Positions 8,922-35,445 of a DNA stretch of 64,000 nt are shown piece after piece. Position 1 is the first letter of the stretch. Each line of letters opens with the position of its first letter. This DNA is from Pelotomaculum schinkii (GTDB lineage: Bacteria > Bacillota > Desulfotomaculia > Desulfotomaculales > Pelotomaculaceae), in contig NZ_QFGA01000001.1 of the NCBI RefSeq assembly GCF_004369205.1, positions 1,612,001 to 1,676,000 on the forward strand, written 5' to 3'. The notes beneath the pieces were generated by a model. It was not told the DNA's origin. It made no database searches and worked only from the letters and a program-made list of their open reading frames with translations. A program made the position numbers and the translations under genes.

Positions 8922-9222
8922 GAAATAAAACAACCCCTCTCCCGGCAGCTTGAATATACTGCCAGGGACGAGGGGCTTATAACCCGCGCGGTACCACCCT
9001 GCTTGCCCCCGCCAAAGGCGAAGGCCTCTTGATGTGCTTAACAAGCACGGCTTTTTTAACGGGCGCCAACCCGGCCCGGCTTACTAAATTCTTTCAGCCG
9101 GCGGCTCCGGGGTGATGTGCAAGCCTTGCACATAAGCGCCGGTTTTCAGCTACCCCAGCTCTCTGCCGCCATGATACTAAGCCTTGGTCCCCTTCACAGC
9201 CTTTACCAAATTGAATTTGTTA
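8922..9222 (-). ncRNA. T-box riboswitch leader of the ilv-leu operon
   Basis: The coding strand carries the conserved T-box sequence AGGGTGGTACCGCG (8987-9000), the antiterminator side, followed by a terminator hairpin (8934-8975, CCCCTC...GAGGGG with an inner GGCAG/CTGCC helix) and a T-rich tail TTGTTTT. Upstream is a stem I-like region with AGAGAGC and a likely specifier ATC at 9114-9116, followed by a purine, which would mean sensing of tRNA-Ile. Uncharged tRNA would favour antitermination into ilvE. The T-box class is clear; the specifier assignment is less sure. Confidence 0.9.
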
Positions 9223-22652: not shown

Positions 22653-23507
22653 TTAATCATTACGTTCACCTAAGTCTGGACAAGCAGTAAATCTAATTGT
22701 AAATATTTGATTATCATCAGCATGGAAAAATTCACCGTGTGTTGTTGGCTGTTTGGCAGTTATCGTCAAGCAGTCCCCATTTTTTTCCCAAATGCTTTGT
22801 TCCAAATCATTGGATTCATTATATCTAAACCGTGGGGGATTGGCCAAACGGGCATTGCTTAAACCTTGTACCACATCGGCCAAGCACGGTGAACCGTTTA
22901 CTGTTACGTTTAACCCCCTTGAGTTGAGCTGACCCAAATAATCATCAGCTATAAGAGCCATGCGTACTCCCAACAATAACCCGGCACACTCCTCCTGGTG
23001 GTGGTGCAAGGCCTGTTTCATGAAAATTTCCTGGCGCATTTCCCTTTTTAACGGACGAATATATGGAGTAACCGGGGAGAAAACAATTTCCTGCTCATAA
23101 TAGGGTTTGATGTCCAGCACAGGAGTCCCGTCCAGGGCATCCAAACCACTGACAAAAAGAAGATTGTCTTGCACCCGATCCAAACGGACTAATGACAAAG
23201 CAATTGGATTAGGCCGGCTAAAAGCACGGAGACAGAAAACTCCGTATTCAGGAAGGTTGGGATTAACCTTCCCGGGAACGACTGACAGGATATCGCGCTT
23301 CGCCTTGTGAAACCACAATTGAAGCCACAAATGAGAATTTTCCTCGATACGCAGTAACCCGCGTTTGTATTCAGGAAACACCTCAATCAAGGAACCTCCT
23401 CCTATAATCGGGACCTGGTCCAGCGCCTTAAAGTCAGACCTGACAATTCCTATTGGTTTTATGGTTATCACACCGGTTTCGTTGTATGAATTCACCTTCC
23501 AGCACAT
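22653..23507 (-). CDS. TrmO-like methyltransferase fused to an FmdE-like domain
   Basis: Residues about 15-150 match the TsaA/TrmO family, which methylates N6 of t6A37 in tRNA with S-adenosylmethionine: IKPIGIVRSDFK, LWLQLWFHKAK, GVFCLRAFSRPNPIALSLVR and LDGTPVLDIKPY are family motifs. Residues about 165-280 resemble FmdE, a zinc-binding domain named from formylmethanofuran dehydrogenase: HHHQEECAGLLLGVRMALIA and NGSPCLADVVQGLSN match its Cys/His segments. The ATG at 23507 has GGAG six bases upstream; the frame runs on to 23552 without a ribosome site. The order S component, decayed ATPase, fusion suggests a link to cofactor or metal metabolism, but the substrate of the second domain is unknown. 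Confidence 0.75.
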   Translation of the reverse strand: MCWKVNSYNETGVITIKPIGIVRSDFKALDQVPIIGGGSLIEVFPEYKRGLLRIEENSHLWLQLWFHKAKRDILSVVPGKVNPNLPEYGVFCLRAFSRPNPIALSLVRLDRVQDNLLFVSGLDALDGTPVLDIKPYYEQEIVFSPVTPYIRPLKREMRQEIFMKQALHHHQEECAGLLLGVRMALIADDYLGQLNSRGLNVTVNGSPCLADVVQGLSNARLANPPRFRYNESNDLEQSIWEKNGDCLTITAKQPTTHGEFFHADDNQIFTIRFTACPDLGERND

Positions 23508-23532
23508 CCTTTTCTCCATAATAGGTTTTGCT

Positions 23533-23877
23533 TCAAATAATTTGCAGAACAATGAGCACGAGCGCAGGGCGCATCAGGCCCCTACCCAGCCGGGCAATTT
23601 TCTTTAAATACCCTTCCCGGATTCTTTTGCGGTAAGCATCCAGGCCGGCGGTGGACTCATCCAGGATCAGAAATTCAGGTCCATCGGCCAGTACGGCGGC
23701 AATCGCCAGGCTGTCTTGTAACGCTATTATAATCATAACAAAGGGTGCTTTTGCCGCAACCGCTCAAGCCAGTCACACTACCATTTCTCCCCTGGCCACC
23801 TGGAAATCGATTCTCTTTAAGACGAGGGCCCACGGCTGGTATCGATAAGCCAAGCCTTGAACCATCACAGCCTCCAT
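23533..23877 (-). pseudogene. Decayed ECF/ABC transporter ATPase
   Basis: The 5' part reads MEAVMVQGLAYRYQPWALVL and reaches RIDFQVARGEMVV, a normal ABC start, then hits TGA. The Walker A motif GLSGCGKSTLCY continues in another frame. Most of the middle, including the LSGGQ signature, is deleted; the rest resumes as LAIAAVLADGPEFLILDEST, a Walker B, and soon ends. With at least one frameshift and a large deletion it cannot make a working ATPase. It sits directly after the ECF S component, where an EcfA gene would be expected, so the S component may now depend on a shared ECF module elsewhere. Confidence 0.8.
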
Positions 23878-23974: not shown

Positions 23975-24547
23975 TCATCCTTCACGCATGTTCCAATCCC
24001 GTTTTTGGAATTTCCAAATCTGCTGTACGATTTTGAACGCAATAATTCCGCCCAACCCGCCGGACAGGGCAGCGACGCTCAAACTTAAGACCAGGGGAAC
24101 AAGAGGAAGACGATAGTTAATGAAATTTACCATAGCGGTACCGGCAATGTTGCACAACATCCCCGCCAGAAAGGCGCACGGCAGGCAGCAAACCCGGTGA
24201 CCGATGAGGAGCAGCCCCAGGTCAGCCAGAATACCCGGCGTAGTATAACTCAGTAAGCTCATCGCTCCTTGCGAGCCAACCATACCAGTGGCCATTACCA
24301 AGATGGCCTGGACCAAGCCAATCAGGGTCATCGTACCCCTTTTACCAGTAATCCCAAACCCCAAGACCAGCCACACCATATAGAAGCCGCCTGTTACTGC
24401 TCCCGGGGGGATTAAGAGCGGTCCGGTAAGGATATGAGACAAGGGTACTAGTACTGGTTTGATGGCAATTCCCAGAGCGGACATCATGGCTATGATGATC
24501 AAATCATAGAGAGAAAACTTATCCAGAAATTTATGCCAAACATGCAC
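23975..24547 (-). CDS. ECF transporter S component (substrate unknown)
   Basis: A 190-residue integral membrane protein with about six hydrophobic segments: residues 14-34, 38-58, 65-85, 88-108, 118-140 and 148-172. The start FSLYDLIIIAMMSALGIAIK and the following small-residue-rich helices resemble S components of energy-coupling factor vitamin and metal transporters, especially the YkoE-like group, but no substrate motif is recognised. It follows the DUF2149-like peptide and precedes the ATPase remnant. Upstream genes encode surface proteins, so a surface-to-membrane uptake path is conceivable. No EcfT permease is in the window. Confidence 0.75.
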   Translation of the reverse strand: MHVWHKFLDKFSLYDLIIIAMMSALGIAIKPVLVPLSHILTGPLLIPPGAVTGGFYMVWLVLGFGITGKRGTMTLIGLVQAILVMATGMVGSQGAMSLLSYTTPGILADLGLLLIGHRVCCLPCAFLAGMLCNIAGTAMVNFINYRLPLVPLVLSLSVAALSGGLGGIIAFKIVQQIWKFQKRDWNMREG

Positions 24548-24948: not shown

Positions 24949-26229
24949 TCACATTGCTACCTCTCTCGTATATTCCATATATCTTCTCCCCAACCCGAAC
25001 AGAAATAAGCTTCCAAATAATGCTGCGGCAAAAATATCCATCCTGTTCTGCTCCTTCTGCTGCTGCAGGGGCACGGCATCGGCCGACATCTCGAATACGC
25101 GCCAGGGTTGGTAGCCCGCCTGCCCTGAGGAGACACTGGTGGTTGTGGAACCGGCGACGGACTTATCCTTTTCCGCCAGGTAGCGCTGAGCAGGCGCCGG
25201 CGGCCCGGCAGGAGTCCTCTGCGCCCCATCCCGGTGAGAACCGGCGTCGGTGGGTGCGACACCCTGCGCACCGGCGTCCTGGTCCGGACCGTTCACGACG
25301 CAGGTGGCCGTCATGTTGCCGACCACAGTGCTCACGGTGATAACGGCCGTACCCGGGCCGACAACCGTCACCAGTCCTTTGTTATCCACCGTGGCCACCC
25401 TGGTGTCGCTGGAACTCCAGTGCACGCTCTTGTCTGTTGCTTCATCCGGAGCTACGTTCGCCGTCAGCCGGACCGTGCTGCCGACCTTCAGTTCAACCAT
25501 GTTCCGGTCGAGGGTGACCCCGGCCGGCGGCATGCCGCCCAGCATTACCTCTATCGCGTGCACCCATTTGACAGACTGGGGAGCGGTATGCTCACCGGGG
25601 TCGCTCTGGCCAAACAGCAGCCTGAACCTGGTCGAGGTGTCGTAAGCGCTGAAATCCGGGGCAGCGTCAAACCGCTGCCAGTTGTCCTTGTACGCTATGA
25701 TCGGCTCCACCCGGACCGCCCCGTATACCGCCTCGGGTGTGGACGAGGCGGTCTCATAATCCCAGCCTGAAGGCAGATTCGGATAATAGAAACGGGGGAT
25801 GTCCAGCAGGAAAGACTTGTCTAAACATTGGTACCATCCCTTTTTGACATCGGTTGAGAAAAAATAAAATTTCTGCACGGAGTTTACGTCGATGCGGGCG
25901 TCTTCCAGCAAATCGGTCAACTTGACCCCTGTGGCCGCGTCCACGCACACCGCCGGCAGGCTGTCGATGAAGGTATAGGCCTGCCTGACCTGCGGCAATG
26001 CGTCCAGGTCGCTGAGCGTGTAGACCTTCTTCGTGTAATAGGGCCCGCCGAAATAGCCGACCTTAATCGTCAGCGTGTCGGCCGCCACACCTGTAACGCC
26101 GGTGCCGCAGCCGGTGCTCGCCACGGCCGGCCCGGCAATCCACAACGGGCTGAGCAGCGCGGCCAGCAGCATTACGCCGGCGACGGTTTTCCACGGCCTG
26201 GGTCTGAATTCCAGCCCTCTCAACTTCAT
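24949..26229 (-). CDS. Exported PF00174-like protein with BIG2 domain and C-terminal anchor
   Basis: 426 residues. A signal peptide (about 1-38, ending AVAST) leads to a PF00174-like region (about 50-235) with TLSDLDALPQ, LTDLLEDARI, RFYYPNLPSGW and RLLFGQSDPGEHTAPQSVKW followed by IEVML. This order resembles the later part of sulfite-oxidase-like molybdopterin domains, without the usual metal-binding Cys context. Next is a bacterial Ig group 2 domain (about 237-318; VTLDRNMVELKVGSTVRLTA and WSSSDTRVATVDNKGLV), a Pro/Ser/Thr linker and a C-terminal helix with basic end (about 398-418, FAAALFGSLFLFGLGRR). It is the only paralogue anchored by a C-terminal helix instead of SLH. Its ATG overlaps the preceding gene's stop (ATGA). 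Ligand unknown. Confidence 0.82.
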   Translation of the reverse strand: MKLRGLEFRPRPWKTVAGVMLLAALLSPLWIAGPAVASTGCGTGVTGVAADTLTIKVGYFGGPYYTKKVYTLSDLDALPQVRQAYTFIDSLPAVCVDAATGVKLTDLLEDARIDVNSVQKFYFFSTDVKKGWYQCLDKSFLLDIPRFYYPNLPSGWDYETASSTPEAVYGAVRVEPIIAYKDNWQRFDAAPDFSAYDTSTRFRLLFGQSDPGEHTAPQSVKWVHAIEVMLGGMPPAGVTLDRNMVELKVGSTVRLTANVAPDEATDKSVHWSSSDTRVATVDNKGLVTVVGPGTAVITVSTVVGNMTATCVVNGPDQDAGAQGVAPTDAGSHRDGAQRTPAGPPAPAQRYLAEKDKSVAGSTTTSVSSGQAGYQPWRVFEMSADAVPLQQQKEQNRMDIFAAALFGSLFLFGLGRRYMEYTREVAM

Positions 26230-27749
26230 TGCTCTTCACTCCAGCGCATCAAGCGCAAAATCATGGCCGCCGTTTCCGCCCGGGTGGCAGTCACTTGCGG
26301 GGCGAAGGTGTCTTCGCTCAAGCCGCTTACTATGCCGCAAGACACCGCCAGGTATATTTCATTTCCCGCCCACGGCGATATATCCCCTTTATCTTTGAAC
26401 TTGTTGATTACCTGCTCAGTTACACTATGCGACAGATCCGCCGTCGACTTCATTTTCAGAGCCCGGGAAATAATCACTGCCATTTGTTCCCGGGTGATGT
26501 TGTCATCAGGAGCAAATATGTCGTCGCTATAGCCCATGATTAACCCCGCCTGAACTGCCGCCGCCACGTAATCGTGATACCAAGCCCCGGCGGGCACATC
26601 TTGAAAAGAAATACCCGTATTCTGCTCAGCCTTGATATTTAAAGCCGCAGTCAGCAGCTTGGCAAATTGGGCGCGGGTGATTTTTTCTTCCGGTTTGAAT
26701 TCCGTGGCGGTCACCCCGTCGATTATTCCTTTTTCCGCTAAAGCTTTAATTTCGTCCCTGGCCCAGTGCCCTGCTATGTCCGCAAAATCCCTAGCTAGAG
26801 CAGGCATTGCCGTTCCTGCCGTTTCGCCTTCTGCTTCGTTTTCAGGGTTCTCTATGTTATATTGAAAAGTTGCCGTCTCACTGTCTAATTTGCCGAAACC
26901 AATGGTTTTTGCCTTGATTGTCAAATTGCCGTTGACCGGCACCGGCTTGTTCAGTTCCGGACGGAAGCTGGGGTAACTGATATTAAATATGTAACTTCCA
27001 TAAGCAGGTTCACTCCCGTCAAGGGTGTAGTACACCATGACATTATCCGCGGCCTCATCCGGTTTCTTCAGAGTTACTTTCGTACCCGGGGCAACCGTGC
27101 CGGACGGGATATCGGCGGTGGGCGCCTCCCACTGATCCAGGGGCGCCGTCAACACTTCAATGACTCCCCCGTTGCACATTTCCTGAATCATCACACAATC
27201 GCCGCCGGTGGGTTCATTCGGCGCACGCTGGCCAAAACATATCCGGCCCTGGGAATCGTTCAGAGCAATTATCGTTTCAACCAGTGTTTTTCCCTTCTCG
27301 CCGCGAATGGGCGGCCAATCCGCCAGATCGCCGGGATTTTCACCCTCGGGGAAATAATACCGGGGTTCTTCCAGCAACTGTTCCCTGGTGAAATCAGCGT
27401 GCACAAACCTGCCGCCGGCTGGTTTTAACCTGAGCAAAGTAGCGTTATCTTTTAAGCCGGCCACGTCTAAAATGCTTTGCAGCGACGGTCCGGTCATATC
27501 TTGAAAAACTTTCAGCGCCGGCCAGTGGTTGTACCCGGAATAAGTGTAAGTTTTTTGCGGCAGCGCCTGTAAATCGGCCATGGTAAAGGTCACTTCTTTC
27601 TCAACCCCGTCGCCTGTCACCGTCAGCGCCGCCGGCTCAGCCGCGCACGCCCCCCGCGGCACGGCCATGACCAGCAACCCGGCGACCATGCTCAGCCCCA
27701 CCACAGCAGCCAGAATTTTATGAAGTTTAAAACTCCTGCTGTTTATCAT
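26226..27749 (-). CDS. S-layer-anchored PF00174-like protein
   Basis: The ATG at 27749 is preceded by GAGGGGGAG; the frame continues to 27821 without support. 507 residues: signal peptide (1-36, VPRGACA end), PF00174-like domain (about 40-205) with VTGDGVEKEVTFTMADLQAL, GPSLQSILDVAGL and ICFGQRAPNEPTGGDCVMIQ. Then a chitobiase-C-like beta-sandwich (about 215-295; VYYTLDGSEPAYGSYIFNIS, IKAKTIGFGKLDSE) and three SLH repeats (about 315-505; FADIAGHWARDEIKALAEKG, DVPAGAWYHDYVAAAVQAG). SLH domains bind secondary cell wall polymers, so the protein sits on the cell surface. Very similar to 30441-32015. It overlaps the next gene by four bases. Confidence 0.85.
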   Translation of the reverse strand: MINSRSFKLHKILAAVVGLSMVAGLLVMAVPRGACAAEPAALTVTGDGVEKEVTFTMADLQALPQKTYTYSGYNHWPALKVFQDMTGPSLQSILDVAGLKDNATLLRLKPAGGRFVHADFTREQLLEEPRYYFPEGENPGDLADWPPIRGEKGKTLVETIIALNDSQGRICFGQRAPNEPTGGDCVMIQEMCNGGVIEVLTAPLDQWEAPTADIPSGTVAPGTKVTLKKPDEAADNVMVYYTLDGSEPAYGSYIFNISYPSFRPELNKPVPVNGNLTIKAKTIGFGKLDSETATFQYNIENPENEAEGETAGTAMPALARDFADIAGHWARDEIKALAEKGIIDGVTATEFKPEEKITRAQFAKLLTAALNIKAEQNTGISFQDVPAGAWYHDYVAAAVQAGLIMGYSDDIFAPDDNITREQMAVIISRALKMKSTADLSHSVTEQVINKFKDKGDISPWAGNEIYLAVSCGIVSGLSEDTFAPQVTATRAETAAMILRLMRWSEEQ

Positions 27750-27852
27750 TGCTCTCCCCCTCGCACTAAATATTAAACGTATATTTTCAGCAAAGCCGCA
27801 ACTCAACACTGTGTTTATCACCGCTCACTCCCGTGCTCCGCGCCGGCGGCGC

Positions 27853-28443
27853 TTACTGCAGCTCCAGGCTCACGAGCCATTTGGTAAAGCGCTGCCCGGA
27901 TATGTCGTTGCAAACAATGACTTGCAGGCTCCCCTCCCCGCCCGCCTTGGTTTGCAATGATTTGCCATTATCGGCATAGACAATATACACATTGTCCGGT
28001 TGGAGGACTTCAGACATTTCCAGCACCTGGCTGTAGTAGTCGACACCCCTGGTAATGATTTTTTTGTGCTTTTGGGTCAGTCCGGGATCAATACTGTTCA
28101 ACACACCCAGGAGCGGTGTGCCGGTGAATTCGTGCTCACTACTGTTTTCACCGCTATTTCCGCTATTATTGCCGCTATTGTTGCCGCAATTATTGCTGCA
28201 ATTGGATTGAACCACCACTTTCTTCTCAACGGCCGGCAATTTCCGGAGGTCGGCGACGGTAAAGCTGCCTAATGTGGCGGCACCGGCTTTAATTACGACC
28301 GTTCCTTCTTGCGGGCCGCTTTTACCGCGGCTTACAAACAAGCAGACGGCAATAATCAGGACCAGCAGCCCAATCCCCAAAGCCGGCCACCTTTTGGAGT
28401 TAATAGCTCTATCTTTACTTTCATCAACATTGTTTTCAGTCAT
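27853..28443 (-). CDS. Membrane-anchored minimal PF00174-like protein
   Basis: 196 residues: a charged cytoplasmic start, one transmembrane helix (about 20-40, PALGIGLLVLIIAVCLFVS) and an external PF00174-like domain without extra modules. FTVADLRKLPAVEKKVVVQS, FTGTPLLGVLNSIDPG, GVDYYSQVLEMSEVLQPDNV, AYADNGKSL-type and EGSLQVIVCNDISGQRFTKW segments are in the family's order. A low-complexity Asn/Gly/Ser insert (NCGNNSGNNSGNSGENSS) sits just where the cofactor Cys loop would be and contains two Cys. It lies between two SLH paralogues and could relay ligand near the membrane, but that is speculation. Confidence 0.78.
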   Translation of the reverse strand: MTENNVDESKDRAINSKRWPALGIGLLVLIIAVCLFVSRGKSGPQEGTVVIKAGAATLGSFTVADLRKLPAVEKKVVVQSNCSNNCGNNSGNNSGNSGENSSEHEFTGTPLLGVLNSIDPGLTQKHKKIITRGVDYYSQVLEMSEVLQPDNVYIVYADNGKSLQTKAGGEGSLQVIVCNDISGQRFTKWLVSLELQ

Positions 28444-28555
28444 TCTGCCACCCCCAGATGGAAATTTCCGTCCGAACGGACTTTGACAGACACACGACCT
28501 ACAGGCTCCATATAACTAGACAAAACCGGATTTACCTGCTAAACACCATATTCTC

Positions 28556-30406
28556 TTACTGAGCGGCAGGGGAATTGATATAATTCAAGAATCGTTTCAG
28601 GATCGCCGCGCTTTGGGCCCGGTCGGCGTTTGTCTGCGGTGAAAAGTCCCCGCCGGGCAGGCCCTTGATGATCCCGGCCCGGACGGCCAGGGCCACATCT
28701 TCCTCCGCCCAGGGTGAAATTAATTGCCGGTCCTTAAACTGAGCCAGCTGCCGTTCCAGCTCGCCGCCGGATAAAGCATCCTCTTTCCCGGCGGCACGCG
28801 CCGCCCGGGCGATCATGGCCGCCATTTCCTCCCGGGTGATGAAAGCATCCGGCTTAAAGAAACCGCCGTCATAGCCCGTGAGGATCCCTTCATATGTGGC
28901 GGCGGCCACACTGCCGGCATACCATGCCGTACCGGCGACGTCTTGAAACTGCCCTTCCTGCAAAACACCCTCCGGCAAGCCCAGAGCTCTCACCAAAAGG
29001 GCGGCAAATTCAGCCCGGGTGATGTCGCTGCCGGGTTCATAAGTAGTCTCGCTTTTGCCGTAGATTAGCTTCCTGGCAGCCATAAATTCAATATCCTCTC
29101 TGGCCCAACTGTCCTGGATATCGGAAAAGGCCAGACCTTTTTCAGCGACTGCAGCTTCTTGCCCGGCAGGTCTATCCTCAACAGCCTGTTCAGCAGCTGA
29201 CTGACCAGACGGCGAATCGTCCACTGTGAACGTGAAGGTGACCACCTCGCTGTCCCGTTTGCCCCATCCGACGGTTTTAGCTTTAATAATGGTGTCCTTC
29301 TCCACGGCAATCGGCTTGTTTAATGTCGGGACGTGGAAGCTGACATTGTAGATCTTGCTTTCCAGGCCCGGTGTGCCGCCGTCGGTGGTATAATAAATTT
29401 TTACTTTCGGGTCGCCATCCAGAATGATTTCCGAACCTTTTTTAATCTTGCCGCCCGGCGCCGCGACTTCTTGCCGGGTATCAGGGTCGATAATTTTTGC
29501 CGAGGGCTGTTCCCACCGCGCCGGGGAATCCGTCGTAACGGTAATGGTCTTTAACCTTTTAACATACTCGCAAAGAATTTGTTCCGTCAGCGCCCGCTGG
29601 CCGAAACACAACACCGGCGTGTCACGGTCGCTCATCTTCGCAAAATCGTCGTCATCCTCCACCCGCTGCAGGGCAATCACCGGCTGCACCGCTTTTTTGC
29701 CGACGGCTGACGATTTCATCAAATTGGGGAAATAGTAGCGTCTCTCATTCAACAGTTCATCCACGGTGAAGTCGATACGGTAACCATCGCTGCCCCGGAA
29801 AGTAATCATTTGGGCTTCCGGTTTCATTTCAGCCTTTTCCAGCAGGGTCCGCAACAGAACACCCTCCGCAGCCACAAATAGATTGCTGGGCCAGTCACTG
29901 ACCACTGAAAATATCTCTCTTTCCTGGCTCATTGCCTCCAGTTCGGCGCGGGTAAAAGAAATTTCCTTTTCCACCCCGTCGCCGTTAATGGTAAGAATAG
30001 CTCCCGCCGTCGTCTGGCCGCCGGAGCCATCCGCTGAAGCTACTGAAAATTTATATCTTTTTAATTCCGGCTGGCCCGCGCCGCCGACGATAATGGTGTA
30101 TTTGCCTTCGGCCGCCGCCGGAGACAGCGTGAAGCCGGCTGCAAAAACACCGTTTTCCACTTGGGGTTGACAGCTATATACCAACCCGCCCTGTTCATCC
30201 TGGACAGTTATGGAAACTTCGGTTAGATTTTGCGCCGTTCCCTCCATTTCAACCCTGTCGCCCGGCCCGTACACGTGGTGGGAGCTGTGCGAAGCGAGAT
30301 TCACCTTGACATCCCCGTCATCCGCGTAACCGGCGCCGGACAGCAGCAACATGGACAGAACCGTCAAAACACATAGTAAATACTTACCAATCCGGAGCGT
30401 TTTCAT
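28556..30406 (-). CDS. S-layer-anchored protein: Ig-like, PF00174-like, chitobiase-C-like, SLH
   Basis: 616 residues. Signal peptide (1-28, GAGYA end). An N-terminal Ig-like sandwich (about 33-125; VYGPGDRVEMEGTAQNLTEV, PAAAEGKYTIIVGG) is shared with 47235-49973 and 51965-53350. The PF00174-like domain (about 136-290) has INGDGVEKEISFTRAELEAM, FRGSDGYRIDFTVDELLNER and VLCFGQRALTEQILCEYVKR. A chitobiase-C-like domain follows (about 305-395; KIYYTTDGGTPGLESKIYNV, WGKRDSEVVTF), then three SLH repeats (about 425-610; DSWAREDIEFMAARKLIYGK, GGDFSPQTNADRAQSAAIL). The Cys that binds molybdenum in true enzymes is not evident. It precedes the minimal membrane paralogue in the same direction. Confidence 0.85.
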   Translation of the reverse strand: MKTLRIGKYLLCVLTVLSMLLLSGAGYADDGDVKVNLASHSSHHVYGPGDRVEMEGTAQNLTEVSITVQDEQGGLVYSCQPQVENGVFAAGFTLSPAAAEGKYTIIVGGAGQPELKRYKFSVASADGSGGQTTAGAILTINGDGVEKEISFTRAELEAMSQEREIFSVVSDWPSNLFVAAEGVLLRTLLEKAEMKPEAQMITFRGSDGYRIDFTVDELLNERRYYFPNLMKSSAVGKKAVQPVIALQRVEDDDDFAKMSDRDTPVLCFGQRALTEQILCEYVKRLKTITVTTDSPARWEQPSAKIIDPDTRQEVAAPGGKIKKGSEIILDGDPKVKIYYTTDGGTPGLESKIYNVSFHVPTLNKPIAVEKDTIIKAKTVGWGKRDSEVVTFTFTVDDSPSGQSAAEQAVEDRPAGQEAAVAEKGLAFSDIQDSWAREDIEFMAARKLIYGKSETTYEPGSDITRAEFAALLVRALGLPEGVLQEGQFQDVAGTAWYAGSVAAATYEGILTGYDGGFFKPDAFITREEMAAMIARAARAAGKEDALSGGELERQLAQFKDRQLISPWAEEDVALAVRAGIIKGLPGGDFSPQTNADRAQSAAILKRFLNYINSPAAQ

Positions 30407-30440
30407 GATGTTTTCTTTCTCCCTTGTAAAACATTTATGG

Positions 30441-32015
30441 TCATTGTACTTGCTTATACAGCCGCAGAACCATGACCGCGGCCTCGGCCCGGGTGGCAGT
30501 AGCCTGCGGAGCGAAGGTGCCGTCGCCCATGCCGCTGATTATGCCGCACGATACCGCCAGCGCAATATCCTGCCTGGCCCACGGTGATATATCCTCTTTA
30601 TCAGTGAACTTGTCAATTCCCTGGTCAGTGATACTATGGGATAAATCTTCAGTTATTTTCATTTTTAAGGCCCGGGTAATGATCACGGCTATTTGCTCCC
30701 TGGTTATGCTTTCATCCGGAGCAAAAGTATTATCGTCAACACCCATGAGCAACCCTGCCTTAACCGCCGCCGCCACATCGTCGTGATACCACGCACCCGC
30801 GGGCACATCGCTGAAGGAAAGGGCCACACCCGGCTTAACCTCGATGCGCAAAGCCCTGACCAGCCACTGGGCAAACTGGGCGCGCGTTGTTTTTTCTTCC
30901 GGATTGAATGCCGCGCCGGTCCCGTCGATCACGCCTCCTGCCACCAAAGCTTTGATATCGTCCCTGGCCCAGTGCCCGTCAATGTCTGCAAAATCTCCGG
31001 CAGGGGCGGCCGCCGCCTTGTCCTCCGCAGCGTTATCTAATTTATTTGCGCCCGCTTTGTCCGCGTCCGCCGGCTTGCCCGCGGTATTTTCTTCAACCGC
31101 GCCGGATTGGGCCGGTAACCCCGTATTGTACTGATAAGTCACCACCTCGCTGTCCAGCTTGCCCATGCCTATTGTTTTAGTTTTAATCACCATACTGCCG
31201 TTAATTGGTATGGGCTTGTTCAATTCCGGCTGGAAGGTGGGGTAGCTGATATTGAATATGTCGCTTCCATACGCGGGCCCGCTCCCGTCCAGGGTGTAAT
31301 ACACGATGGCGTGATAAGGCGTCCCGTCCCTGTGCTGCAGGGTTACTTTCGTGCCCGTGGCGACATGGCCGGGCGCGGGGTCGGCGGACGGCGCCTCCCA
31401 CTGCGCCGGGGGCGCTGTAAATACTTCAATCGTCCCTCCCTCGCAAAGCCCTCCGAGCATCTGGTTCTTGCAGCAAGTCGGCTCGTTCAGCGCGCACTGT
31501 CCATAGATTATTTTTCCGTTGGACTCGTTCAGGGCGAGCATCGTCTCCACTGGCACTTTCCCTCTTTCACTGCGGGTGGGCGGCCATTTCCCCAGATTAT
31601 CCTCGTCTTCACCATCGGGGAAATAATACCTGGGTTCGTCCAGCAACTGTGCCTTGGTAAACTCACTATACACGTCGTCAGACAATTTGCACCTGATCAT
31701 GGTGGCGTTGTCCTTTAATCCCGCCGCGTCTAAAATGGTTTTCAACGTCGGACCTTTCATATCCTTAAATATTTGCAGGGAAGGCCAGTGGTTGTATCCG
31801 GAGTAGGTGTACGTTTTTTGCGGCAGCGCCTGCAATTCGGCCAGGGTGAATTGCACCGTTTTTTCAACCCCGTCGCCCGTCACCGTCAACGCCACCGGCT
31901 CAGCCGCGCCCGCACCTTGCGGCGCAACGACGACCAGCAACCCGGCAACCATGCTTAACCCCACTACAACAATTGCCAGCAGTTTATTAAGTCTAAAACC
32001 CCTGATGTTTATCAT
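30441..32015 (-). CDS. S-layer-anchored PF00174-like protein
   Basis: 524 residues from the ATG at 32015, preceded by GAGGTGG; a GTG 15 bases up overlaps that site. Signal peptide (about 1-37, GAGAA), PF00174-like domain (about 38-210; VTGDGVEKTVQFTLAELQAL, GPTLKTILDAAGLKDNATMI, IIYGQCALNEPTCCKNQMLG), chitobiase-C-like domain (about 215-300; YYTLDGSGPAYGSDIFNISY, TIGMGKLDSEVVTYQY), an Ala/Asp/Lys-rich linker and three SLH repeats (about 340-520; DGHWARDDIKALVAGGVIDG). It shares most of its sequence with 26226-27749, so the two arose by duplication. It starts 11 bases after the upstream gene. Confidence 0.85.
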   Translation of the reverse strand: MINIRGFRLNKLLAIVVVGLSMVAGLLVVVAPQGAGAAEPVALTVTGDGVEKTVQFTLAELQALPQKTYTYSGYNHWPSLQIFKDMKGPTLKTILDAAGLKDNATMIRCKLSDDVYSEFTKAQLLDEPRYYFPDGEDEDNLGKWPPTRSERGKVPVETMLALNESNGKIIYGQCALNEPTCCKNQMLGGLCEGGTIEVFTAPPAQWEAPSADPAPGHVATGTKVTLQHRDGTPYHAIVYYTLDGSGPAYGSDIFNISYPTFQPELNKPIPINGSMVIKTKTIGMGKLDSEVVTYQYNTGLPAQSGAVEENTAGKPADADKAGANKLDNAAEDKAAAAPAGDFADIDGHWARDDIKALVAGGVIDGTGAAFNPEEKTTRAQFAQWLVRALRIEVKPGVALSFSDVPAGAWYHDDVAAAVKAGLLMGVDDNTFAPDESITREQIAVIITRALKMKITEDLSHSITDQGIDKFTDKEDISPWARQDIALAVSCGIISGMGDGTFAPQATATRAEAAVMVLRLYKQVQ

Positions 32016-32026
32016 CGCTATCCACC

Positions 32027-33856
32027 TCACATTGTATTGGAATCAATATAAGTCAAAAACCGTTTCAGGATCGCCGCGCTCTGGGCGCGGTCGGCATAAG
32101 TCTGCGGGGAAAAGTCCCCGCCGGACAGGCCCTTGATGATCCCGGCCCGGACAGCCAGGGCCACATCCTCTTCCGCCCAGGGAGAAATCACTTGCCGGTC
32201 CTTGAACCGGGCCAGCAGTTGTTCCCGCCCGCTGACGGACAAAGTCTCCTCCTTCCCGGCGGCACGCGCCGCCCGGGCGATCATGGCCGCCATCTCCTCC
32301 CGGGTGATTTGAGCGTCCGGCTTAAAGAAGCCGCCGTCATAGCCCGTGATGATCTTTTCATCCGCGGCGGCAGCCACACTGCCGGCGTACCAGTCCGCAA
32401 CATTCACATCCTGAAACCGCCCTTCCTGCAAAACTCCTTCCGGCAAGCCCAGAACTCTCACCAGAAGGGCGGCAAATTCAGCCCGGGTAATGTCGCTGCC
32501 GGGTTCATAAATGGTTTCGCTTTTGCCGTAGATCAGCTTCCTGGCAGCCAGAAATTCAATATCCTCTCCGGCCCAGTTGCCCTGGATGTCGGTAAAGGCC
32601 AGACCTTTTTCAGCGGCCGGCGCTTCTTGCCCGGCAGGTTTATCCTCAGCAACCTGCTGAGCAGTTGACTGACCAGGCTGCGACCCGTCCACTGCGAACG
32701 TGAAGGTAGCCACCTCGCTGTCCCTTTTGCCGAACCAGACAGCTTTAGCTTTGACCGTGGTGTCGGTTTGCACCAGGATCGGCTCGTCCTGGCCCGCCAG
32801 CGGTCCGCAACCGTGGGCGTTGTAGATTTTGCTGTCAAGATCCGGCGCGCTGCCGTCGGTGGTATAATAAATCTTTGTTTTCGGGTCGCCCGCCAGAGCG
32901 ATTTTTGTGCCGCGCTTTACCACGCCGCCCGGCGTGGCCACTTTTTGCCGGGTGGCCGGATCGATGATTTGCGCCGTTGGCCCGGCCCACTGCCCCGGAG
33001 CATCAGTGGTTACGGTGATGGTTTGCAGGATCTTGACGAAACTCAAGAGGGTTTGCTCAGTCCGCGCCCGCTGGCCAATACATAATACCGGCGTATCCTG
33101 TTCGCTCATCTGGCTGAAATCAGTGGACCGCTCCGCCTTTTTCAGGGCTATTACCGGCTCCACCTCTGTCCCGGCGGGGAATATGTAACGTTTTGTTTCC
33201 AATAATTCATCTCTGGTGAATTCGGCCCTGTACCCGTCGCTGCCTGTAAAAGTTATCATCCGGGCTTCCGGTTTCATTCCGGCCTTAGCCAGCAAGGCCC
33301 GCAGCGGCACCCCCTCCGCGGCAACCGATAAATCCGCGGGGAAATCGTTTGTCGCGGAAAACACCGCGCTTTCCTGCTCCATCGCCGCCAGTTCGGCCCG
33401 GGTAAAGACAACTTCCCGCGGCACCCCGTCTCCTGTGATATACAGCAGGCCGATCTTCTGCGTCACGCGAGCGTCCGCATAGCCGCCGGCCTTGATAACG
33501 ACGGCGTAATCCCCGGACGTCCGGAACACACTTTTATCGATGGTGATCTTGCCGGCGTCTATGGCGTATTTCCCGGCCTCCAGCGCCGCGCCGTCCACGC
33601 TGACCCCGCTGACCGCCCCCCGCCAGGCCGCGTCGTCCGCGAAGGTCAGTTCCACCGGCTTCCTGATCACGTTCTGCGCCGCGTCCGCCGCCAGGGCGGG
33701 CGCCGCTTTCAGCCCGCCCTGGGACGACAGCGCGTCGCCGGCGGCCTCCGCCGCCTTGACCGGCTGCGCAAGGTTATGGCTTAACAATATCGCCATAGCG
33801 CATACTGCCGGGAACAGTGCGCGCAATATCTTGCTTTTAAGGCTGGACAAAAACAT
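32027..33856 (-). CDS. S-layer-anchored PF00174-like protein with Hb-interacting-like domain
   Basis: About 609 residues. Signal peptide (1-36, PVKAAEAAG). Next comes a beta domain at about 75-135 (WRGAVSGVSVDGAALEAGKY, DKSVFRTSGDYAVVIKAGGY) that resembles the haemoglobin-interacting domain of Shr-type proteins (PF07550). The PF00174-like domain follows (about 137-285; ITGDGVPREVVFTRAELAAM, FTGSDGYRAEFTRDELLETK, VLCIGQRARTEQTLLSFVKI), then a chitobiase-C-like domain (ALAGDPKTKIYYTTDGSAPD) and three SLH repeats. The start is uncertain: the ATG at 33856 abuts GGGAGGAG, and a TTG two codons later has better spacing. It is the first gene after a promoter about 250 bases upstream and is a close paralogue of 28556-30406. 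Confidence 0.84.
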   Translation of the reverse strand: MFLSSLKSKILRALFPAVCAMAILLSHNLAQPVKAAEAAGDALSSQGGLKAAPALAADAAQNVIRKPVELTFADDAAWRGAVSGVSVDGAALEAGKYAIDAGKITIDKSVFRTSGDYAVVIKAGGYADARVTQKIGLLYITGDGVPREVVFTRAELAAMEQESAVFSATNDFPADLSVAAEGVPLRALLAKAGMKPEARMITFTGSDGYRAEFTRDELLETKRYIFPAGTEVEPVIALKKAERSTDFSQMSEQDTPVLCIGQRARTEQTLLSFVKILQTITVTTDAPGQWAGPTAQIIDPATRQKVATPGGVVKRGTKIALAGDPKTKIYYTTDGSAPDLDSKIYNAHGCGPLAGQDEPILVQTDTTVKAKAVWFGKRDSEVATFTFAVDGSQPGQSTAQQVAEDKPAGQEAPAAEKGLAFTDIQGNWAGEDIEFLAARKLIYGKSETIYEPGSDITRAEFAALLVRVLGLPEGVLQEGRFQDVNVADWYAGSVAAAADEKIITGYDGGFFKPDAQITREEMAAMIARAARAAGKEETLSVSGREQLLARFKDRQVISPWAEEDVALAVRAGIIKGLSGGDFSPQTYADRAQSAAILKRFLTYIDSNTM

Positions 33857-34108
33857 CTCCTCCCAAGAAATATTGATGTATATGACGGGCATACCTACAG
33901 ACCAGTAATGTTGATGGAATAGCTAAAGTAATCGTTGCAATGTTTTGCACCAGGTTGGGATTGTCGGTGGTTGCGTGCTTAGAGAGCACATCGTATTAAG
34001 TGGTTTTGAAGTATTTGAAGTGGCTTTGTTTAAGATGGCTTCGCGGCTGATAAATAATATCCAAATTATCATTTTCAATACATAAACAGCCAAACCTTTA
34101 CAATACAA

Positions 34109-35236: not shown

Positions 35237-35445
35237 TTGACAAACCTCCTAATTTTTTTTTTGCTGCCGCGGCCCAAATTGCTTTTCTTTAAGGTTAATA
35301 ATTCAGCTCTATTCGCCCCCCCTTTCCACAATCAAAAAGCCATGAATTTTCTTTCATCACCCTGTGAGCTTGGAGATCAGGCTGAAAAAACATAGTCATA
35401 GAATTAAATCCACCATTCAGGAAGATATTATTCAATTTCTCAAGG

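Follow-up and report, generated by a model that had tools for sequence, protein, structure and literature searches.

The gene at positions 22653 to 23507 (minus strand) of the window, i.e., the whole 64,000-nucleotide stretch of Pelotomaculum schinkii DNA analysed here, is a real fusion of a TrmO_N (TsaA) domain to an FmdE domain. The family of fusions to which it belongs, hereafter type A, is very probably linked to molybdenum and tungsten (Mo/W), and the window copy, judged from that family, is likely to share the link. A role in metal supply rather than on tRNA is probable because the kin of this gene sit in Mo/W import operons under Moco riboswitches, and the reading preferred here, albeit with reserve, is that of a cytosolic accessory protein for Mo/W supply acting as a small-molecule methyltransferase and not as a tRNA enzyme. 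The original prediction, made from the letters of the DNA, is partly supported in its interpretation; the regulon and operon evidence, the division into types A and B, the altered metal motif and the doubt cast on the name TrmO are new.

The Fusion Gene and its Domains

Read from a TTG, the ORF covers 22653-23552 on the minus strand (299 amino acids), and residues are numbered from this ORF throughout. The ATG at 23507, which yields a protein of 284 amino acids, is the better start because a GGAG Shine-Dalgarno sequence lies a few bases 5′ of it and the starts of relatives fall nearby, in agreement with the frame first proposed. Pfam places TrmO_N (PF01980, 1.8e-28, 99.6 bits against a cut-off of 26.8) at residues 55-153 and FmdE (PF02663, 3.2e-6, 27.7 bits against a cut-off of 22.9) at residues 185-238. 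In the predicted structure (mean pLDDT 72.9) the block means of the C-terminal domain are mostly 83-95 and the AdoMet loop (residues 83-115) is poorly predicted; since the predicted-fold matches span residues 29-161 and 168-299, TrmO_N and the FmdE core are both complete. Pfam and the fold matches agree on the TsaA/TrmO first half and the FmdE second half that had been proposed, and both HHHQEECAGLLLGVRMALIA and CLADVVQGLS are present. That proposal had been made to depend on a profile hit to FmdE and on the presence of the fusion in related genomes: FmdE scores above the Pfam cut-off, and many related genomes carry the fusion. A scan of genome contigs shows the fusion kept in about 29 related loci, and these type-A loci belong to Desulfotomaculaceae, Syntrophomonadaceae, Petroclostridium and a few more taxa. 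Pelotomaculum terephthalicicum JT is the closest match that has a name (78%), and comparison with the closest ortholog, from P. terephthalicicum, indicates purifying selection on the window fusion (dN 0.11, dS 0.71, dN/dS of about 0.15).

A Putative AdoMet Pocket without the tRNA-Binding Domain

The first half is a class VIII (beta-barrel) AdoMet methyltransferase domain (TrmO_N; positions 23070..23468, minus strand, residues 29-161), the predicted fold of which matches that of AF0241 with bound SAM (Z 15.0, rmsd 2.9 over 122). R109, D138 and K149 of the fusion correspond to R82, D111 and K122 of AF0241. The pocket residues, which in E. coli numbering are Gln25, Arg92, Asp125 and Lys136, were tested in 24 aligned type-A sequences. 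The equivalents of Asp111 and Lys122 occur in all 24 and that of Arg82 in 22, with His in the other two, whereas the position of AF0241 Gln22 is not conserved, which weighs against the preferred reading. Arg and Lys are the pocket residues that E. coli TrmO cannot lose (PMC4132733). The C-terminal domain bearing the DPRxxY motif is likewise essential for E. coli TrmO (PMC4132733); in the fusion FmdE occupies its place, and the motif is absent from every type-A and type-B sequence aligned.

A genuine tRNA m6t6A methyltransferase, with FmdE installed where TrmO has its tRNA-binding C-terminal domain, is a very unlikely identity for the protein. NCBIfam TIGR00104 does call the fusion TrmO (117.8 bits, cut-off 93.25), which weighs against the Mo/W reading, and the only other TrmO_N genes of the genome are sister fusions. 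However, the essential DPRxxY domain is lacking in both types, four paralogs in one genome and the linkage to riboswitches and Mo/W transporters described below speak against a tRNA enzyme, and 23 of 60 related genomes are without any match, so that m6t6A formation by this family is not generally needed. The original prediction looked to a stand-alone trmO elsewhere in the genome to free the window copy for another role; this part falls, since a search across the 4.4 Mb genome found none, and its four TrmO_N genes are all FmdE fusions, two of type A (the window copy included) and two of type B. The companion suggestion, that the domain acts on a small molecule rather than on tRNA, is in keeping with the missing DPRxxY domain and with the gene context, any such substrate being putative. 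For the fusion family, TrmO is probably a misnomer of automatic annotation, and naming by TIGR00104 would ascribe to these bacteria a tRNA modification that they perhaps lack.

An Altered Metal Motif in the FmdE Domain

The FmdE core domain (22662..23039, minus strand, residues 172-297) is delimited by PF02663, hhalign, the fold match to 2GLZ and conservation. The Pfam hit to FmdE is short, but a profile of 24 relatives matches stand-alone FmdE by hhalign with an E-value of 3.7e-9 over 116 columns, and the predicted fold of residues 168-299 matches 2GLZ at a Z of 12.3 (rmsd 2.8 over 117) and 3D00 at a Z of 11.7 (rmsd 3.8 over 126), with Z values well above those of unrelated comparison structures. 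Given this profile-profile E-value and the two fold matches, the FmdE half is more than a chance match.

The FHGHxC motif of FmdE provides three metal ligands (PMC2954224). Type A has HHxExC instead, the first His being kept in 24/24 sequences, Glu replacing the second His in 23/24 and Cys being kept in 23/24; the window fusion reads H185-x-E187-x-C189, with D226/Q229 as its second motif. D226 and Q229, which correspond to Asp58 and Gln61 of the FmdE dimer-axis motif, are found in all 24 type-A sequences, and all 24 have Arg at the position of FmdE Thr67. The C-terminal zinc finger common in FmdE proteins is missing from the window fusion. The label of zinc domain calls for caution, since the FmdE core stands without the finger and one of the three metal ligands is changed from His to Glu.

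These features also bear on the main rival, in which the protein binds SAM and metal without methyl transfer, as a metallochaperone or as a SAM/Mo-W sensor that tunes a transporter or passes metal to cofactor synthesis; it is a serious contender, though on balance an unlikely one. The FmdE core keeps the ligand-capable residues H185, E187, C189, D226 and Q229, the FmdE family, found beside metal transporters, has been proposed to comprise chaperones or regulators (PMC2954224), fusion copies accompany many types of transporter, and type B, when aligned with type A, is seen to retain TrmO_N after loss of the FmdE ligand residues. On the other hand, RPNP, D138, D147 and K149 are invariant in the type-A alignment and R109 is nearly so, as expected if AdoMet is used, and binding alone has no obvious need for all of these residues. 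Methyl transfer to a small molecule stays the preferred reading.

Family Tree and Type-B Operons

In the tree, types A and B each form one group, and type B joins a fusion from Bipolaricaulota (L082) with modest support. The second type-A copy of the genome, on contig 2, adjoins a FecBCD-type transporter, a radical SAM protein, a class-I methyltransferase, a stand-alone FmdE and DUF364; no RF01055 riboswitch was found near it, which weighs against the Mo/W reading. Type-B proteins are about 27% identical to the window protein. Their operons (L014, L015, L110-L118) comprise SUOX-like surface proteins, a protein of 250 amino acids, the type-B fusion, in some cases a Se/S carrier, a TIGR01977 cysteine desulfurase, an S component and a complete ECF module. 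The 250-amino-acid protein, encoded upstream in every complete type-B operon, has no Pfam or NCBIfam match and ends in CGLGCF in both copies of the genome. Haft and Self (PMC2276186) list TIGR01977 together with the genes of selenium-dependent molybdenum hydroxylases. One type-B surface protein (L114:8552-11029) combines Big_2 and a weak match to SUOX with a Shr-like domain for interaction with heme proteins (3.4e-27). As a separate observation, three tandem Na+ riboswitch aptamers (RF03071) lie near an Rnf operon at L014:494-1129 (minus strand).

Linkage to Mo/W Transporters in Relatives

Neighbourhoods in relatives were examined by ORF clustering and order, together with family calls on representative loci. 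In ModABC, TupABC/WtpA, TupABC/MOT1, TupA and other ABC operons, the type-A fusion is either the sole cytosolic gene or the final one. It follows ModABC in L020, TupABC with WtpA in L028 and TupABC with the MOT1 molybdate permease in L046, precedes TupA in L042, and elsewhere comes after NMT1-type or FecBCD-type ABC operons. Stand-alone FmdE (7 loci), XdhC (2 loci), DUF364 (heavy-metal chelation) and MoeA are also among the neighbours of type-A loci. Across 60 related genomes, ModA/TupA is no more than 5 kb away from 6 of the 23 fusions of type A, with 0.17 expected, as against 0/21 stand-alone TsaA genes and 0/11 type-B fusions. The P value of 3e-8 for this co-location is too small because the loci are kin by descent and three of the six genomes come from one genus; the contrast with stand-alone TsaA and type B is the safer statement.

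Two further candidates were rejected. The first, that stand-alone TsaA is linked in general to FmdE or to Mo/W genes, found no support: in the 30 genomes to which other TsaA loci led, only Methanohalobium, with an adjacent gene pair, and the Bipolaricaulota fusion pair TsaA with FmdE. An apparent triple fusion with an Oxidored_molyb protein (L025:5291-6598) is joined by a run of N, i.e., a scaffold gap between two genes.

Moco/Tuco Riboswitches

Of 30 type-A loci, 11 have RF01055, the Moco/Tuco riboswitch (PMC2408646), in front of the fusion operon and in the same orientation, with scores of 58-82 bits (gathering score 36). In L020 and L037 the fusion itself comes directly after the riboswitch; the gene that follows it is TupA in L028 and L035, an NMT1-type ABC gene in L026, L030 and L032, FecCD in L027, and the gene of a SUOX-SLH surface protein in L019, L021 and L022. 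Since RF01055 heads them, the NMT1-type and SUOX-SLH operons belong to the Mo/W set. In Desulfoscipio MAGs, a surface-protein context like that of the window copy is headed by the riboswitch. In the 60-genome set, an RF01055 of the same orientation lies no more than 400 bp upstream of at least 4 of the 23 type-A fusions (0.016 expected); at a limit of 9 kb the number is at least 7 (0.37 expected). None was found in ten loci of other TsaA genes, several of which are archaeal or distant and make a weak control. Regulski et al. described Moco-type RNAs before putative sulphite oxidase genes of Syntrophomonas wolfei (PMC2408646), and these genes may represent the same SUOX surface-protein family. 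The Mo/W connection drawn in the original prediction is therefore strong in relatives, through transporters and Moco/Tuco riboswitches, but not within the window.

One whole genome (G000) contains 19 Moco/Tuco riboswitches above the gathering score, several of them as tandem pairs.

Surroundings of the Window Copy

Upstream of the fusion lies an ECF transporter remnant, as had been predicted, all on the minus strand. An EcfA remnant (23572..23709), which also matches a fragment of TIGR04521, has 46 residues that are 74% identical by tblastn to residues 157-202 of the intact paralog at L015, and the remnant of a second EcfA (23785..23877) covers residues 1-32 (62.5% identical, tblastn). They are followed by an intact ECF S component (PF09819, ABC_cobalt; 23975..24547, 190 amino acids, Pfam 4.4e-14), which is 78% identical (tblastn) to its counterpart in L015, an intact ECF operon of the same genome. 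No EcfT was found beside these genes, and a DUF2149 fragment that precedes the fusion in the same orientation is below cut-off. Further upstream, a surface-protein array (24949..33892, minus strand) includes several proteins with SUOX-like (Oxidored_molyb) and SLH domains; the clearest SUOX-fold match is at 27853-28443 (PF00174, 8.8e-13), and an SLH domain scores 7.8e-39 at 26226-27821. The same surface-protein family (cluster c2) adjoins type-A fusions in L019, L021, L022, L024, L025 and L044. No classical Mo/W transporter was found near the window copy, which weighs against the Mo/W reading for that copy.

Within the window no RF01055 reaches the gathering score, a second point against that reading. 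An element at 35303..35435 (minus strand), before the gene of a 191-amino-acid SUOX-like surface protein, scores 21.2 bits, short of the gathering score of 36. Its E-value is 0.38 when 15.5 kb are compared with all Rfam families and 0.026 when the genome is compared with this family alone, and it resembles a Moco/Tuco riboswitch that has decayed or diverged. It is located 11.8 kb upstream of the fusion and probably outside its transcript, since a promoter-like site at 34137-34109 intervenes.

It is conceivable, though rather doubtful, that the window copy has changed its role and serves, with the ECF system and surface proteins, another cofactor such as a tetrapyrrole or thiamine precursor. 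Surface proteins and the PF09819 S component are indeed its neighbours, and a type-B operon that has the same S component adds the surface protein with the Shr-like domain, TIGR01977 and a Se/S carrier. However, RF01055 leads the same surface-protein family together with a type-A fusion in L019, L021 and L022, TIGR01977 has itself been reported with selenium-dependent molybdenum hydroxylases (PMC2276186), and the degenerate RF01055 lies in the same array. For the window copy, too, a Mo/W role is the preferred reading.

Two other features of the window may be recorded: over 26226-49973, SLH surface proteins that also carry SUOX-like and chitobiase/Big domains stand in tandem, with large proteins of RCC1-like repeats among them, and a T-box leader (RF00230, 94.6 bits) is found at 8961-9206 on the minus strand.

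Proposed Function

According to the preferred reading, the N-terminal beta-barrel domain would bind S-adenosylmethionine and the C-terminal FmdE domain would hold a metal or metal-ligand complex at His-x-Glu-x-Cys. Both domains may act on an imported metal complex or cofactor precursor, most likely by methyl transfer to a small molecule rather than to tRNA, and the window copy, in its ECF/surface-protein array, would share this type-A Mo/W role. In other proteins, FmdE is joined to PF00994, a domain that binds molybdopterin (PMC2954224). A bolder and improbable version makes the protein a SAM-dependent enzyme for an undescribed step of Mo/W acquisition, e.g., methylation of a ligand that releases the metal from its complex with sulfur or a chelator; the window copy would then be a partner of SUOX-fold proteins and the ECF S component in metal-cofactor scavenging.

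A role in metal supply would be a testable proposal for FmdE and possibly point to a missing enzyme in Mo/W handling. The role of YaeB homologs without the DPRxxY domain was left open by Kimura et al. (2014), and linkage to Moco/Tuco riboswitches and Mo/W genes makes that question testable in Pelotomaculum and Syntrophomonas relatives.

Comparison with Known Systems

The fusion shares the N-terminal beta-barrel AdoMet domain of TrmO/YaeB/TsaA proteins (TIGR00104, PF01980; AF0241 2NV4, RPA0152 3OKX, HI0510 1XQB and P. aeruginosa 7BTU), in which two residues of the AdoMet pocket never vary and a third hardly does. It differs from them in lacking the DPRxxY domain and conservation at the position of AF0241 Gln22, in being joined to FmdE, and in its multiple copies and Mo/W context. 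With FmdE (PF02663; 2GLZ Dhaf_2992, 3D00 SYN_00638) it has in common the alpha+beta core, the Asp and Gln of the second motif, the His and Cys of the metal motif and a metal-transporter context. Unlike FmdE, it bears HHxExC for FHGHxC, Arg for Thr67 and no C-terminal treble-clef zinc finger, and its FmdE sits behind a methyltransferase domain. In the open-licence literature, no link of TrmO/TsaA/UPF0066 to molybdenum was found beyond the UPF0066-FmdE architecture that Axelrod et al. (2010) listed without structure or function (PMC2954224), in which the same two families occur in one protein. The TsaA-FmdE-zinc finger fusion of the Bipolaricaulota MAG has the same domains and lies directly behind a FecBCD-type transporter, but it differs from type A in that its FmdE is canonical and complete, zinc finger included (129.7 bits), and in grouping, with modest support, with type B.
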